Assembly (NCBI GenBank): GCA_016291905.1
Contig: JAEEZS010000060.1
Span: 1 to 64,000, forward strand
DNA: 64,000 bases
From: Bacteroidaceae bacterium
GTDB taxonomy: Bacteria > Bacteroidota > Bacteroidia > Bacteroidales > Bacteroidaceae
Reading direction: 5' to 3'
In this document: positions 16,352-23,131 of the stretch, in pieces
Layout: each line of letters begins with the position of its first letter
How positions within the stretch are numbered: position 1 is the stretch's first letter
Translations under genes and position numbers: made by a program
Notes under the pieces: model-generated
Told to the model about the DNA's origin: nothing
Databases searched by the model: none
The model's input: only the letters and a program-made list of their open reading frames with translations

Positions 16352-17176
16352 ATGATGAGGTTGTTCTACAAAATTGGCCTTTACCTTGTGCCTGTCCTCA
16401 TGGCACTTACCTCCTTTCTGGCAAAAGCTGAGTGCGAGGTGGCTGGCTGCTGCCTGAAAAGGGACGGAACGGAATGCGGCGTGGGTGCCGACGATCGTTT
16501 CCCGATGTATAGCGTAATGAAGTTCCCGCAGGCGCTGTTCGTCGCAGACTTCCTTGTGAGGAACAATATTGATTTGGCGTCTGAGGTTTCCGTCAGGAAA
16601 AATGGGCTGATGCAGGACACATGGTCGCCGATGCTGAGCACGTTTGAGGAGGAACGGACGTTCACCTATGCCGAGTTGCTGGCTTTGTCATTGGGACAGA
16701 GCGACAACAATGCCTGCGACATCCTCTTCCGCCAGTGTGGCGGCCCGTGGAGGGTGGAGAGTTACATCTGTAGTCTTGGGATAAAGGACATCCATATCCG
16801 GCGGACGGAAAGACAGCTTCATGCCCGTCCGGCACAGAGCCGCAAAAACTGGTGTACGCCGCGGTCGATGGTCAGGCTGCTGGAGTGGTTCCTTGTGCAT
16901 CACGACGACAATGAGCCGCTCCGCTACATCTGGCACTTGATGGCCGCATGTCAGACCGGAGAGGATCGTTTGCCCGCAGCAGTCCAAGGTGCTGCCGAGG
17001 TCGTCCACAAGACAGGCACCGGCTACCCCCTGCCGTCAGGACTGCCGTCAGGCATCTGCGATGTGGGCATTATCCTGTATGACGACGGCCGACAGCTTCC
17101 GATAGCCGTTTTCGTCATAGCCCCATCATCTATGTCACGGGTAGCCGAGGTGGCCCGCGGGCTGCTGAGTATGTGA
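16352..17176 (+). CDS. Class A beta-lactamase
   Basis: Serine beta-lactamase of class A, most like the Bacteroidetes CfxA/CepA/CblA and PER branch. All active-site elements are seen: Ser54-V-M-Lys57, Ser117-Asp118-Asn119, Glu153 in RTERQLHA (omega-loop glutamate in the branch-specific TExxxH setting) and Lys220-Thr-Gly. A signal peptide precedes (cleavage near AKA, residue 26). At 274 residues it is slightly shorter than typical members. There is no transposase or integrase beside it, so it looks like a resident chromosomal gene. Resistance spectrum cannot be judged from sequence alone. Confidence 0.88.
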   Translation: MMRLFYKIGLYLVPVLMALTSFLAKAECEVAGCCLKRDGTECGVGADDRFPMYSVMKFPQALFVADFLVRNNIDLASEVSVRKNGLMQDTWSPMLSTFEEERTFTYAELLALSLGQSDNNACDILFRQCGGPWRVESYICSLGIKDIHIRRTERQLHARPAQSRKNWCTPRSMVRLLEWFLVHHDDNEPLRYIWHLMAACQTGEDRLPAAVQGAAEVVHKTGTGYPLPSGLPSGICDVGIILYDDGRQLPIAVFVIAPSSMSRVAEVARGLLSM

Positions 17177-17918: not shown

Positions 17919-18065
17919 GAAACACGGCTGCGAGCCCCAAGACGCTGGCGGAAATCATCGGCATATAACGAAAAAAACACGTTGGCCGATGCAGTTTTTT
18001 TGACTCTCACGACACAATATAGGAAAAACAACACTTTTGCTGGCATAATTAACGGAGAAAAGAAA

Positions 18066-18344
18066 ATGAAGGTGGCGAGAATCGTTGTATGTCTTTTGGG
18101 GAGCCTGGCGCTGCTGACGGCCTGTGCTGATAGTGACCCCGCTTTCGGCGAGACGGGGTCCAGCCAGACGAAGGTCTCGAATCTTTTTTTCCACTCACAT
18201 CTGTTCTATGACATCGGTTGCCGATTCCGTGTCTGTTTCTATGAGGGTGACATGTCACCAAAGGAACTGATGCTGCAGAACGCTGTAGGGGTGGAGCGCT
18301 TCATCAAGATTCTCCGTAAGGCGGGCAAAATAGTCAAAGAATAG
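18066..18344 (+). CDS. Small predicted lipoprotein
   Basis: A 92-residue protein with a lipoprotein signal (MKVARIVVCLLGSLALLTAC, lipidated Cys20). No known domain is recognised in the remaining 72 residues, which contain PKELMLQNAVGVERFIKILRKAGK. The ATG at 18066 is chosen because it starts the lipoprotein signal and follows a purine-rich GGAGAAAAG. It ends 16 bases before the sigma-barrel fusion gene and reads the same way, so it may be part of the same envelope-sensing unit. Confidence 0.6.
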   Translation: MKVARIVVCLLGSLALLTACADSDPAFGETGSSQTKVSNLFFHSHLFYDIGCRFRVCFYEGDMSPKELMLQNAVGVERFIKILRKAGKIVKE

Positions 18345-18360: not shown

Positions 18361-20046
18361 ATGGATGGGGATGAACTGGTGAACAGGTGCAAGGCAGGTG
18401 ACCGTCAGGCCTTGCATCAGCTTTATCTGCAATACAGGCCCCGGCTGCTCGCCATCTGCATGCACTATGCCAAAGACGGCGATGTGGCGGAAGACTTGCT
18501 GCACGACGCCTTTATCATTATCCTGACATCGCTGGACAAACTGCGGAGTGCCGACAAGCTGGAGCCGTGGATGGCGAGGATTGTCAGAAATGTGGGTTAT
18601 CACTATTGCAAACACATCGACCAGGAACAGGCTGCCCTCCAGCAAATGGAGAGCGAAGAACCCGTGGGGGAAGAGACGACGCCGATGCCTGACTACGACC
18701 AGCTGCAGGCGCTGGTTACCCAACTGCCCAAAGGCTATCAGCAGGTTTTCCGACTTTCGGTCTTTGAGGGGCTTTCCCATCAGGAGATTAGCCAAAAGCT
18801 TGGCATAGCGCCCCATACCTCCTCCTCGCAGCTCTCCCATGCAAAGCGGATGTTACAACGGCTTATCAAACAATCGTGGATGCTGATATTGCTGCTGTTC
18901 ATCGCCATTCCGATAGTCTGGACGCTGCTTCGCCAGACTGGGCCGACGGTGGAGCCAGAGGTGGCTGTGTCTGAAGCAAATATAGACTATCAGACATCAG
19001 ACTCCTATGCAGATAATACCCCTGCATCTGAGCCGCAGAACGAACATTTATCTGCCAGTCTGCAGCCTGTTAGTCTGAAGTCTAAAAAAGATAGTATAGA
19101 CTATCAGACTTCAGACTCCGTGACTGAAGATAATACCCCTGCATCCGAGCCGCAGAACGAACATTCGTCTGCCAGTCTGCAGCCTGTTAGTATGAAGTCT
19201 AAAAAAGATAGTCTGCAGTCTAAAGACGCTCCCGTTCTTCATCATCAGCCGTCCATTAGGTTCCGTTCGTCGTCGACTAACCAGTCATGGAAAGTCAGTG
19301 CCAGCGTGTGTGGCCCGGTGGGGCGGCGTGACGATTATTTGGCAGCAGCTACCATTGGCAGAGGCAGCTTCGATGCCTATAGTAACAGCAAGCTTTTGGC
19401 AACTCAGGTGTTCGGCAACTGGAAAGACTACGGACAATATCTAGATGCCAATGCATGGATGTTGAACGATATCGAAACCCGTTCCATCATGAACATTGCA
19501 TCCCAGAATGCAGCCATCAACGAAGGTGCTATGGAGGCCCACTACGTGCATCAGCTACCTGTCACTATTCAAATCAAGTTCACCCGTCAGCTCAACAGCC
19601 GTCTTTTCGTTGAAACTGGCCTCAGCCACACCCAACTTACCTCCACCGTCACCACAGGCAGTACTCAGGCCTATATTCAGGAGCATCAGCGAACAAACTA
19701 TCTCGGCCTTCCATTCAGCGTGGGTTGGCAGTGGTACAATAAGGCTCAGTTCAGCCTCTATTCTTCAGGTGGCATCATGCTTGAACTGCCCGTCCGCAGT
19801 ACCCTTGACGTGGTGCACATGGCAAACGGCTACAATACCTTCAGCAAGACATCGTCTCCCGCTATCCCCGTCCAGTGGTCGGCAATGCTTGGTTTCGGCA
19901 TCCAGTACGACCTTACACCCAGTCTCGGCATCTACATGGAGCCCAGCCTACAATACTTCGTGGGCAATGGCAGTACCCTTAAGACGTATCGTACGGAGCA
20001 TCCCGTCAGCATCTCTTTACCCCTTGGTATACGTTTCCATTGGTGA
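18361..20046 (+). CDS. ECF sigma factor fused to membrane helix and outer-membrane barrel
   Basis: A single open frame of 561 residues. Residues 1-90 form a sigma region 2 (ALHQLYLQYRPRLLAICMHY, DVAEDLLHDAFIIILTSLDKL, EPWMARIVRNVGYHYCKH). Residues 112-168 form sigma region 4 (LPKGYQQVFRLSVFEGLSHQEISQKLGI). A transmembrane helix follows (about 173-190, MLILLLFIAIPIVWTLL), then a Ser/Asp-rich linker with two 38-39 residue repeats (208-284), then about 260 residues with the alternating pattern of an outer-membrane barrel ending in PLGIRFHW. The topology implied is cytoplasmic sigma, periplasmic linker, outer-membrane barrel. A GTG at 18346 is an alternative start. Biological role is inferred only. 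Confidence 0.85.
   Translation: MDGDELVNRCKAGDRQALHQLYLQYRPRLLAICMHYAKDGDVAEDLLHDAFIIILTSLDKLRSADKLEPWMARIVRNVGYHYCKHIDQEQAALQQMESEEPVGEETTPMPDYDQLQALVTQLPKGYQQVFRLSVFEGLSHQEISQKLGIAPHTSSSQLSHAKRMLQRLIKQSWMLILLLFIAIPIVWTLLRQTGPTVEPEVAVSEANIDYQTSDSYADNTPASEPQNEHLSASLQPVSLKSKKDSIDYQTSDSVTEDNTPASEPQNEHSSASLQPVSMKSKKDSLQSKDAPVLHHQPSIRFRSSSTNQSWKVSASVCGPVGRRDDYLAAATIGRGSFDAYSNSKLLATQVFGNWKDYGQYLDANAWMLNDIETRSIMNIASQNAAINEGAMEAHYVHQLPVTIQIKFTRQLNSRLFVETGLSHTQLTSTVTTGSTQAYIQEHQRTNYLGLPFSVGWQWYNKAQFSLYSSGGIMLELPVRSTLDVVHMANGYNTFSKTSSPAIPVQWSAMLGFGIQYDLTPSLGIYMEPSLQYFVGNGSTLKTYRTEHPVSISLPLGIRFHW
18982..19212 (+). repeat. In-frame tandem duplication in sigma-barrel linker
   Basis: Two adjacent units, 18982-19095 (114 bases) and 19096-19212 (117 bases), encode near-identical linker segments beginning IDYQTSDS and ending KSKKDS. 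They differ by one codon insertion and few substitutions. The repeat lengthens the segment predicted to cross the periplasm. Confidence 0.85.
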
Positions 20047-22170: not shown

Positions 22171-22653
22171 GTGACACGCGAAGTATTTATAGCCCATGTG
22201 GAGCGTGAGCAGGAGGCCCTGCGGGGCTTCATGCTCGCCCTCTGCTGCGGCAACAGGGACGATGCCGACGACCTGGCACAGGATGCGCTGGTAAAGGCCT
22301 ACCTCTCGTCGGCGGGCTATCAGGACAGGGGGCGGTTCCGCTCGTGGCTCTTCAAGATTGCCTACAATACGTTCCTCAACCACGTGGCAAGCCGACAAAC
22401 CGCGGAGAGCATCGACGAGGCACGGACGCTCGTCAGCGACGTCTCAGCCGACTCTTCCTTCGAACACCAGGATCTTTACCTCGCCCTGCGCACCCTTCCG
22501 AAAAAAGAACGCTCGGCCATCACGCTGTTCTACCTCAGCGGCTACAACGTCAAGGAGATTGCCTCCATTACCGAGACCTCTGTGGAGGCCGTGAAAAAAC
22601 AGCTCTCGCGAGGCCGTGACAGACTGAGGGAGGCATTGAAGATTGAAGATTGA
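22171..22653 (+). CDS. ECF-type RNA polymerase sigma factor
   Basis: 160-residue sigma-70 family protein. Region 2 is seen at about 10-75 (DDADDLAQDALVKAYLSSAGYQDRGRFRSWLFKIAYNTFLNH) and region 4 at about 105-155 (ALRTLPKKERSAITLFYLSGYNVKEIASITE). It starts with GTG three bases after the DUF6249 stop. The last codons (LKIED and stop) are formed by the GAAGATT repeat that follows, so the C terminus has probably been remodelled by the repeat. Confidence 0.92.
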   Translation: MTREVFIAHVEREQEALRGFMLALCCGNRDDADDLAQDALVKAYLSSAGYQDRGRFRSWLFKIAYNTFLNHVASRQTAESIDEARTLVSDVSADSSFEHQDLYLALRTLPKKERSAITLFYLSGYNVKEIASITETSVEAVKKQLSRGRDRLREALKIED

Positions 22654-22735
22654 AGATTAAAGATTGAGAATTGTAGATTGAAGATTGAGAATGGATAAAG
22701 TATTAACTATGAACTATGAATTGTGAACTATGAAC
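22633..22735 (+). repeat. GAAGATT and AACTATGA low-complexity repeats
   Basis: Degenerate GAAGATTGAA-type heptamers run from within the last codons of the sigma gene to about 22692, followed by AACTATGA-type copies that include the start codon of the next gene. No other feature is visible in this gap. Confidence 0.65.
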
Positions 22736-23131
22736 TCAGATAAAGCCCTTGAGGACGTGTTCCTCGCCCAGACGCCCCGTTTCACGGACAACGACGCCTT
22801 CATGGCTTCGCTCACGAAGCGCTTGGATGCGGTGGAGTACGTCAAGCGCTTTCAGGAGGCCACCCTCCGCCGCTACAAGATGATGATGTTGGCGGCCTTC
22901 GTGGTGGGTATCATTAGCGGAGCCCTTGCCGTCATGTACGTGCTCTCCACACCTGCCGACGTCCCCCTCTTCACGTTCCGCATGCACTCGGCTGTACTTT
23001 CGTGGCTGTCCGAGAACTCACGCATTATCATGGCCACCACCCTCGCGTTTCTGATAACGTTGGGACTCATTAGCATTGTGGGGAATGTGCAGGACATCGT
23101 GCGAATGCGCGCTAAGGAGATAGAAATGTGA
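22730..23131 (+). CDS. Membrane protein following ECF sigma factor
   Basis: 133 residues with two helices (about 50-72, MMMLAAFVVGIISGALAVMYVL, and about 98-120, IIMATTLAFLITLGLISIVG). The first 48 residues are soluble and would face the cytoplasm. Position directly after a sigma gene and small N-terminal domain suggest an anti-sigma factor, but no zinc-binding HxxxCxxC motif is present and the family is not recognised. Confidence 0.65.
   Translation: MNSDKALEDVFLAQTPRFTDNDAFMASLTKRLDAVEYVKRFQEATLRRYKMMMLAAFVVGIISGALAVMYVLSTPADVPLFTFRMHSAVLSWLSENSRIIMATTLAFLITLGLISIVGNVQDIVRMRAKEIEM

Follow-up and report, generated by a model that had tools for sequence, protein, structure and literature searches.

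A single-chain protein of Bacteroidaceae joins an ECF sigma factor to a predicted outer-membrane barrel

One gene from a Bacteroidaceae bacterium encodes, in a single polypeptide chain, an ECF sigma factor, an inner-membrane helix, a disordered periplasmic linker, and an outer-membrane barrel. The gene is located in a 64,000-nucleotide stretch of contig JAEEZS010000060.1 (assembly GCA_016291905.1), hereafter called the window, where it occupies positions 18361 to 20046 of the forward strand as one open frame of 561 amino acids that begins with ATG; an in-frame GTG is present five codons upstream. This sigma-to-barrel architecture is well supported by the open frame and by Pfam, AlphaFold2, and Foldseek. 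On balance, we favor the interpretation that the protein is a trans-envelope sigma factor that would activate its own gene and be freed by proteolysis when the barrel or the outer membrane is disturbed. We infer the signal and the proteolytic steps of this proposal, the latter by analogy.

Pfam identifies Sigma70_r2 (PF04542) at residues 21-83 (positions 18421 to 18609; E = 2.3e-11) and Sigma70_r4_2 (PF08281) at residues 113-165 (18697 to 18855; E = 2.2e-13). Regions 2 and 4 are thus present in the arrangement that defines ECF sigma factors, and profile matches to ECF sigma factors of known structure extend over positions 4-175. Within the barrel domain (residues 305-561; 19273 to 20043), which ends in an aromatic residue, OMP_b-brl_2 matches residues 395-525 with an E value of 2.2e-4 that falls below the curated cut-off. 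When the 43 members of alignment A2 were scanned singly, all three domains were found at E <= 1e-3 in every member. The AlphaFold2 model built on the same alignment (mean pLDDT of 77, pTM of 0.48) places confident sigma2 helices at residues 3-98 and confident sigma4 helices at 112-147, followed by a single 41-residue helix (151-191) that continues from the recognition helix of region 4 into the membrane helix. The membrane-embedded part, also evident in the alignment, is predicted at residues 173-191 (18877 to 18933), and its W173 and P184 are near-invariant in A2. Residues 193-304 (18937 to 19272) form the predicted periplasmic linker and are disordered (pLDDT < 50), and barrel strands are predicted at residues 311-560 with block means of 80-96.

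A Foldseek search with this same single model returned E. coli sigmaE (1or7, E = 2.3e-7), AlgU, and SigW for the sigma portion and the OmpA barrels 1bxw (E = 3.2e-6) and 9fzd (E = 1.7e-5, TM of 0.56 by target) for the C-terminal portion. A reading of the sequence alone had proposed an uninterrupted frame with sigma regions 2 and 4, a membrane helix at about residues 173-190, a linker with repeats, and a C-terminal barrel, and each of these elements was recovered. The repeats are tandem nucleotide copies inside the linker (18974 to 19212), with 88 nt at 94% identity (spacing of 117 nt) and 32 nt at 88% (spacing of 114 nt). Both halves share one frame and the model contains a barrel, such that a sensor-like barrel is tied covalently to the sigma factor, as that reading had also suggested.

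The distribution of this gene was assessed in 301 genomes from the window's family, which include the window's genome and 300 others. A single match spans at least 509 of the 561 residues in at least 45 of the other genomes, and at least 43 of these lack an internal stop. The match comes in pieces in 15 further genomes, each of which was checked and has one open reading frame with both domains. Therefore, the fusion is present in at least 60 of the 300 other family genomes, 58 of them without a stop. Among the matches listed, the fusion also occurs in 1 of 244 genomes from the order beyond the family (G519, at two places, one of which was checked and is a single open reading frame of 526 amino acids), and in none of 244 further genomes from the phylum.

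A search of named genomes with the single protein as query gave no match, whereas an alignment search did find relatives. The named collection has 344 stretches that encode a relative, of which the best 80 were used, a choice that favors intact fusions. One open reading frame covers more than 480 query residues in 79 of these 80 loci, the exception being L067; a stop at codon 11 in L118 leaves 78 loci with no stop in the matched frame. One locus (L082) is cut by a contig edge, and in three (L059, L060, and L062) the protein begins 15-19 residues downstream of the window protein's start; the start codons assigned to some relatives are approximate. According to the named records, the relatives are mainly from Prevotella, Prevotellaceae, and Bacteroidaceae metagenome-assembled genomes from ruminants; the fusion is also carried by two isolates, Prevotella ruminicola KHT3 (L060, with the late start) and P. 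aff. ruminicola Tc2-24 (L063). Fused relatives have both halves in a single frame and are 30-54% identical to the window protein. In the analyses below, 124 fused proteins correspond to 114 distinct proteins and 102 coding sequences to 93 distinct sequences, as judged by the C-terminal 300 residues; the distinct counts are lower because some genomes occur both as a survey genome and as a named record.

The fused gene is sometimes lost, given that in-frame stops are present in three relatives (L037/G156, L067, and L118) and that two fused-type relatives (L134 in G074 and L151 in G002) are broken within the linker or beyond it by a stop or a change of frame. In L037, and also in L219, a TGA codon lies exactly at the near-invariant tryptophan of the sigma/helix junction, and the remainder of the frame is open. 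This form would yield a free sigma factor and a separate helix-barrel protein, and would represent decay, a natural always-on form, or readthrough.

The likely origin of the fusion is revealed by 40 split pairs, in which a sigma gene of about 185 codons is followed by a gene for a separate protein of about 360-500 amino acids. This second protein has an N-terminal segment of about 45 residues, a membrane helix, a long tether, and a homologous barrel, and the available portions of the reports on Dma (PMC13088901) and Reo (PMC9308784, PMC13114119) describe the same design. A profile of the anti-sigma segment, built from the 40 split proteins, matches 18 of 18 split loci, which are its training data, and detects a Dma-type anti-sigma domain in none of the 124 fused proteins (114 distinct). 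Among 5526 open reading frames in 81 fused loci, the same profile has three matches, in L059 and L063. In the fused proteins, the membrane helix comes directly after region 4, which leaves no room for an anti-sigma domain between them, and Pfam and NCBIfam detect no other anti-sigma type in the window protein. Therefore, the fused protein is not a sigma factor joined to an intact Dma. Rather, the sigma domain occupies the place where the anti-sigma domain was.

All 36 fused rows (35 of the 124 proteins plus L174, the checked place in G519) fall on one side of one branch in a sigma tree that also includes 42 split and 5 outgroup rows (SH-aLRT of 100). The same 36 again fall on one side of one branch in a barrel tree with 38 split rows (SH-aLRT of 95). 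Both trees come from a short search with SH-aLRT as the measure of support, the barrel tree was midpoint-rooted for drawing, and L134 was dropped from the former and L178 and L197 from the latter (weak scores). Because the two trees agree in this respect, the simplest reading is that the fusion probably arose once, followed by joint divergence of the two halves. Sigma and barrel distances are correlated among fused proteins (r = 0.68, with none of 2000 permutations as high), and the value for split pairs is higher (r = 0.86). The window sigma groups with those of the split pairs, apart from the five other ECF sigma factors of its genome. Together, the trees and domain content show that the ancestor was a two-gene pair of a sigma factor and a trans-envelope anti-sigma factor, of the EcfO-Reo or Das-Dma type, whose anti-sigma domain was lost. 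Elsewhere in the window (22171 to 23131), a second ECF sigma gene (160 amino acids) is followed by a gene for a 133-residue protein, a possible anti-sigma factor for this sigma that seems to contain membrane helices.

Under the proteolytic-release model, a helix that extends the DNA-recognition helix of the N-terminal sigma domain would fix this domain to the inner membrane on the cytoplasmic side, the disordered linker would span the periplasm, and the C-terminal barrel would be inserted in the outer membrane. Anchoring would restrain the sigma factor while the barrel reports the state of the outer membrane. Disturbance of this membrane or failed barrel assembly would open the linker to periplasmic proteolysis, and an RseP-type intramembrane protease would then cut the helix to free the sigma factor. 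Since the anchor would be cut in the process, each molecule would be a single-use sensor. The freed sigma factor would recognize TGCAGTCTTTT...TATA promoters of its own operon and of small lipoprotein genes and, in a large subgroup, would also drive a radical-SAM/SPASM and Gfo/Idh/MocA gene pair. The lipoproteins may serve as envelope effectors in a role comparable to that of NigD. A bolder formulation, which we regard as evenly poised, is that the sigma factor is itself the outer-membrane protein, forming a cytoplasm-to-surface chain without an anti-sigma factor that would act as a single-use reporter of outer-membrane assembly or damage, and whose release would activate the fused gene itself together with one lipoprotein dedicated to it and, in one lineage, an operon for radical-SAM modification.

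Because the sigma factor and barrel share one chain, proteolysis offers the simplest switch. Of 102 fused sequences, 93 have a proline at position 184 (84 of the 93 distinct ones), whereas none of 18 anti-sigma membrane helices from split pairs has one (L134, the nineteenth row, is not a Dma and was left out), which suggests that P184 would suit intramembrane cleavage. A set of 18 mostly deep-branching fused proteins includes 17 that were scored, and 9 of these lack the proline in the helix core; the residue is thus not essential, and its value as proof of cleavage is weakened accordingly. An RseP-type gene is present in the window's genome, and because the RseP model also matches 14 of 14 control genomes, this presence says little.

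These observations bear on a serious, if rather unlikely, rival. The sigma factor might remain uncut at the membrane, in the manner of ToxR or CadC, with the state of the barrel and linker switching its access to RNA polymerase or DNA. Consistent with such tethering, the AlphaFold2 model shows region 4 and the membrane segment joined in one continuous helix, and the DNA-contacting start of the recognition helix in ECF sigma4 domains faces away from the membrane end. Likewise, most predicted targets adjoin the fused gene, and the helix proline is not universal. However, one predicted target is on another contig of the window's genome, an arrangement that would be possible even for a tethered protein. 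Furthermore, IutY, the nearest precedent for a fused membrane-sigma protein, is activated by Prc/RseP cleavage according to the available part of one review (PMC8999054).

The target assignments rest on a shared promoter motif. Fused loci carry TGCAGTCTTTT, then about 16 nt, and then a TATA-like box. The window contains a single match to the pattern TGCAGTYTTTN{15,18}TATA (chance expectation of 0.01 from shuffles), and this predicted promoter (17990 to 18021, forward strand) precedes an operon composed of a small lipoprotein gene (18066 to 18344, forward strand) and the fused gene, whose ATG begins 16 nt after the lipoprotein gene ends. Farther upstream (16352 to 17176), the window encodes a class A beta-lactamase-like protein (PF13354, E = 9e-30). 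The lipoprotein has 92 residues and a lipobox pattern with Cys 20, and it is a truncated member of a family whose proteins are about 185 amino acids long (alignment A3). Over its last 32-33 residues it shares 55-63% identity with three relatives, and it matches the family profile with an E value of 3.4e-6, though A3 includes the window row. About half of the family's length is absent, and the protein may be a decaying or minimal form. For a family example (L106, 6747 to 7292), the predicted structure is largely confident (pTM of 0.71), with no Pfam family. An identification of the lipoprotein as NigD was rejected, given no Pfam match and no PDB fold match better than E = 0.7; NCBIfam likewise gives no match for the window lipoprotein and only an unrelated weak match for L106.

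In the 3.27-Mb genome of the window, the reversed control has no match, whereas the same promoter pattern has two: the window promoter and a site on a different contig (C28:14424-14452, minus strand), about 30 nt before a gene for a 189-residue lipoprotein that a separate profile search (E = 3.7e-25) detected as the only other family member in this genome. The probability of a random site in such a 100-nt slot is about 1.5e-5. This second occurrence, together with the presence of the family under the same promoter by other fused genes, makes it very likely that the upstream lipoprotein gene is part of the system, as the sequence-only reading had considered.

Across 80 loci (the window plus 79 named loci), 76 have a promoter site no farther away than 1.5 kb upstream or 2.6 kb downstream, and 4 have none; antisense sites number zero, and the reversed pattern has one match. 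Another promoter pattern, applied to whole loci, yields 124 sense versus 3 antisense sites. In the subgroup near the window, the promoter is followed by the lipoprotein gene and then the fused gene. In a larger subgroup, it lies directly before the fused gene (53 nt from the ATG in 39 of 73 scored), is often repeated before a gene for a lipoprotein of about 185 amino acids just downstream, and often also precedes a radical-SAM/SPASM gene that is followed by a Gfo/Idh/MocA gene. This gene pair, found at loci L065-L118, L219, and L224, perhaps carries out envelope sugar or peptide modification. By blastp (E of 1e-5, sense strand), the lipoprotein family is present in 39 of 80 loci, the radical-SAM gene in 36, and the oxidoreductase in 33. 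These counts are incomplete at contig ends and for some family members, such as L046 and L056, which align in A3. Several loci near the window encode lipoprotein-like proteins of 213-446 amino acids under the same promoter, which have no match to the lipoprotein family in the same search. This arrangement strongly suggests that the fused sigma factor reads the TGCAGT promoter and drives itself and the lipoproteins.

It is improbable that the TGCAGT promoters instead belong to the cell's separate split sigma factor, with the fused one reading other sites or being inert. In support of this idea, split pairs have a related promoter, TGCAGTATTTT...; it occurs in 11 of 19 scanned sigma loci, among which L134 is a broken fused gene. 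A split pair (L139) is likewise present in the window's genome. However, split and fused sites differ at the position next to TGCAGT: all 11 split sites have A there, whereas C predominates ahead of fused genes (with T in the window and A in L094). A strict C-type pattern, TGCAGTCTTTTN{9,14}ACTATA, tracks the fused gene: it has 20 sites in 17 of 301 genomes, with none for the control, and 17 of the 20 are at a fused sigma gene. Sixteen of these are within 100 nt (in one, G148, the sigma gene is cut by a contig end), and the site in G075 is 1.4 kb upstream. The strict pattern is insensitive: it lies beside the gene in 13 of the 60 fused genomes plus the contig-cut case, and does not match the promoter of the window itself. 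Because split pairs carry a related promoter, the motif looks like a self-controlled promoter of the whole sigma lineage. Sequence comparisons further indicate that the fused sigma domain is under strong purifying selection, contrary to an inert protein: the median dN/dS over 293 pairs (dS of 0.15-0.95; 74 of the 102 sequences, the window not among them, some genomes twice) is 0.114 for sigma, 0.196 for the helix, 0.303 for the linker, and 0.150 for the barrel.

Some promoter sites are found apart from these genes. Three of the 20 strict sites (in G110, G029, and G045) have no adjoining sigma or lipoprotein gene that we recognized. The one in G110 (L221, C23:4695-4724) is a perfect fused-type promoter, perhaps the scar of a lost fused gene. 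A looser pattern has three sites in the window's genome, one of the split-pair type, and one control match. A TGCAGTATTTT-type site (L220, G000:C25:37299-37328) lies just upstream of a gene for a 283-residue lipoprotein-like protein, a possible target of the genome's split pair (L139).

The linker is nearly constant in length and highly variable in sequence. The distance from residue 193 to W310 is 100-139 residues in the 102 fused coding sequences including the window (median of 115, standard deviation of 7.5), and identity to the window's linker averages 16%. About 110 extended residues would be able to span the periplasm. It is very improbable that the chain is always cut during maturation into a free sigma factor and a barrel, with no sensing. 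A linker whose sequence is free to vary would fit such constitutive cutting, whereas its narrow length range and the continued joining of the halves across the sampled clade argue against it, and a permanently freed, self-activating sigma factor would be expected to run away. Finally, conservation in at least 60 of 300 other family genomes and open matched frames in 78 of 80 named loci, including the isolates KHT3 and Tc2-24, exclude chance, a frameshift, or a sequencing or assembly artefact that joined two genes, even though split pairs exist in the same family and four (L130-L133) have both genes in the same frame, where the open reading frames were checked separately because the open-frame measure runs across the stop between the sigma and Dma genes.

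If the proteolytic-release model is correct, outer-membrane sensing would be wired to transcription by one protein with no anti-sigma factor. The system would be simple, with one gene, one promoter motif, and one lipoprotein family. It would allow a direct test of how the Reo and Dma trans-envelope regulators pass their signal by reducing a two-protein pathway to one molecule, and it would add a predicted class of envelope regulator to rumen and gut relatives of Prevotella.

The sequence-only reading had held that Bacteroidetes commonly encode the sigma factor, anti-sigma factor, and outer-membrane partner as separate genes. The comparison was incomplete because two-protein trans-envelope pairs, EcfO-Reo and Das-Dma, are already published. 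The novelty therefore lies in the fusion with loss of the anti-sigma domain and not in trans-envelope control. We recognized no description of a sigma factor fused to an outer-membrane barrel in the portions of the literature covered (including PMC13088901, PMC8999054, PMC9308784, PMC13114119, and PMC12596196), and the single-chain form without an anti-sigma domain is apparently undescribed, whereas trans-envelope sigma control itself is known.

ToxR- and CadC-type regulators are membrane-tethered proteins that carry a cytoplasmic transcription module on one helix. They share the one-helix anchor with the fused protein, but are DNA-binding regulators rather than sigma factors and have no outer-membrane domain. 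IutY and the sigma/anti-sigma fusions ECF243, ECF48, ECF52, and ECF53 likewise combine a sigma factor and a membrane regulator in one chain. However, these fusions keep an anti-sigma domain, whereas our protein lacks one of the Dma type. Activation by proteolysis has been shown for IutY, where Prc/RseP cleave, and proposed for others, and the word "barrel" is absent from the available part of the review that describes them (PMC8999054).

The closest known systems are the published pairs EcfO-Reo and Das-Dma. The sigma factors Das1, Das2, and EcfO (the Das sigma factors are termed ECF21 in the available part of PMC13088901) have sigma domains homologous to the fused one, as seen in the tree of split pairs, and likewise have lipoproteins in their known or predicted regulons. 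Judging from accessible sections of the source papers, EcfO-Reo is induced by the antibacterial toxins BcpT and Bd-A, drives NigD surface lipoproteins, and has been proposed to sense outer-membrane stress (PMC9308784, PMC13114119), and Dma1/Das1 activity raises nigD1 and vesiculation (PMC13088901). Pfam gives no NigD match for the lipoprotein family of the fused genes. Dma (dual membrane-spanning anti-sigma) and Reo of Bacteroides and Phocaeicola share with the fused protein, by prediction, one inner-membrane helix and a long disordered tether and, by prediction and profile, a C-terminal outer-membrane barrel of the same family; their sigma partners are homologous, and a related promoter precedes the split pairs. 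The N-terminus of Dma and Reo is an anti-sigma domain, and these proteins control a sigma factor made from a neighboring gene of its own, whereas the fused protein has the sigma domain in that place, covalently anchored within the same chain.
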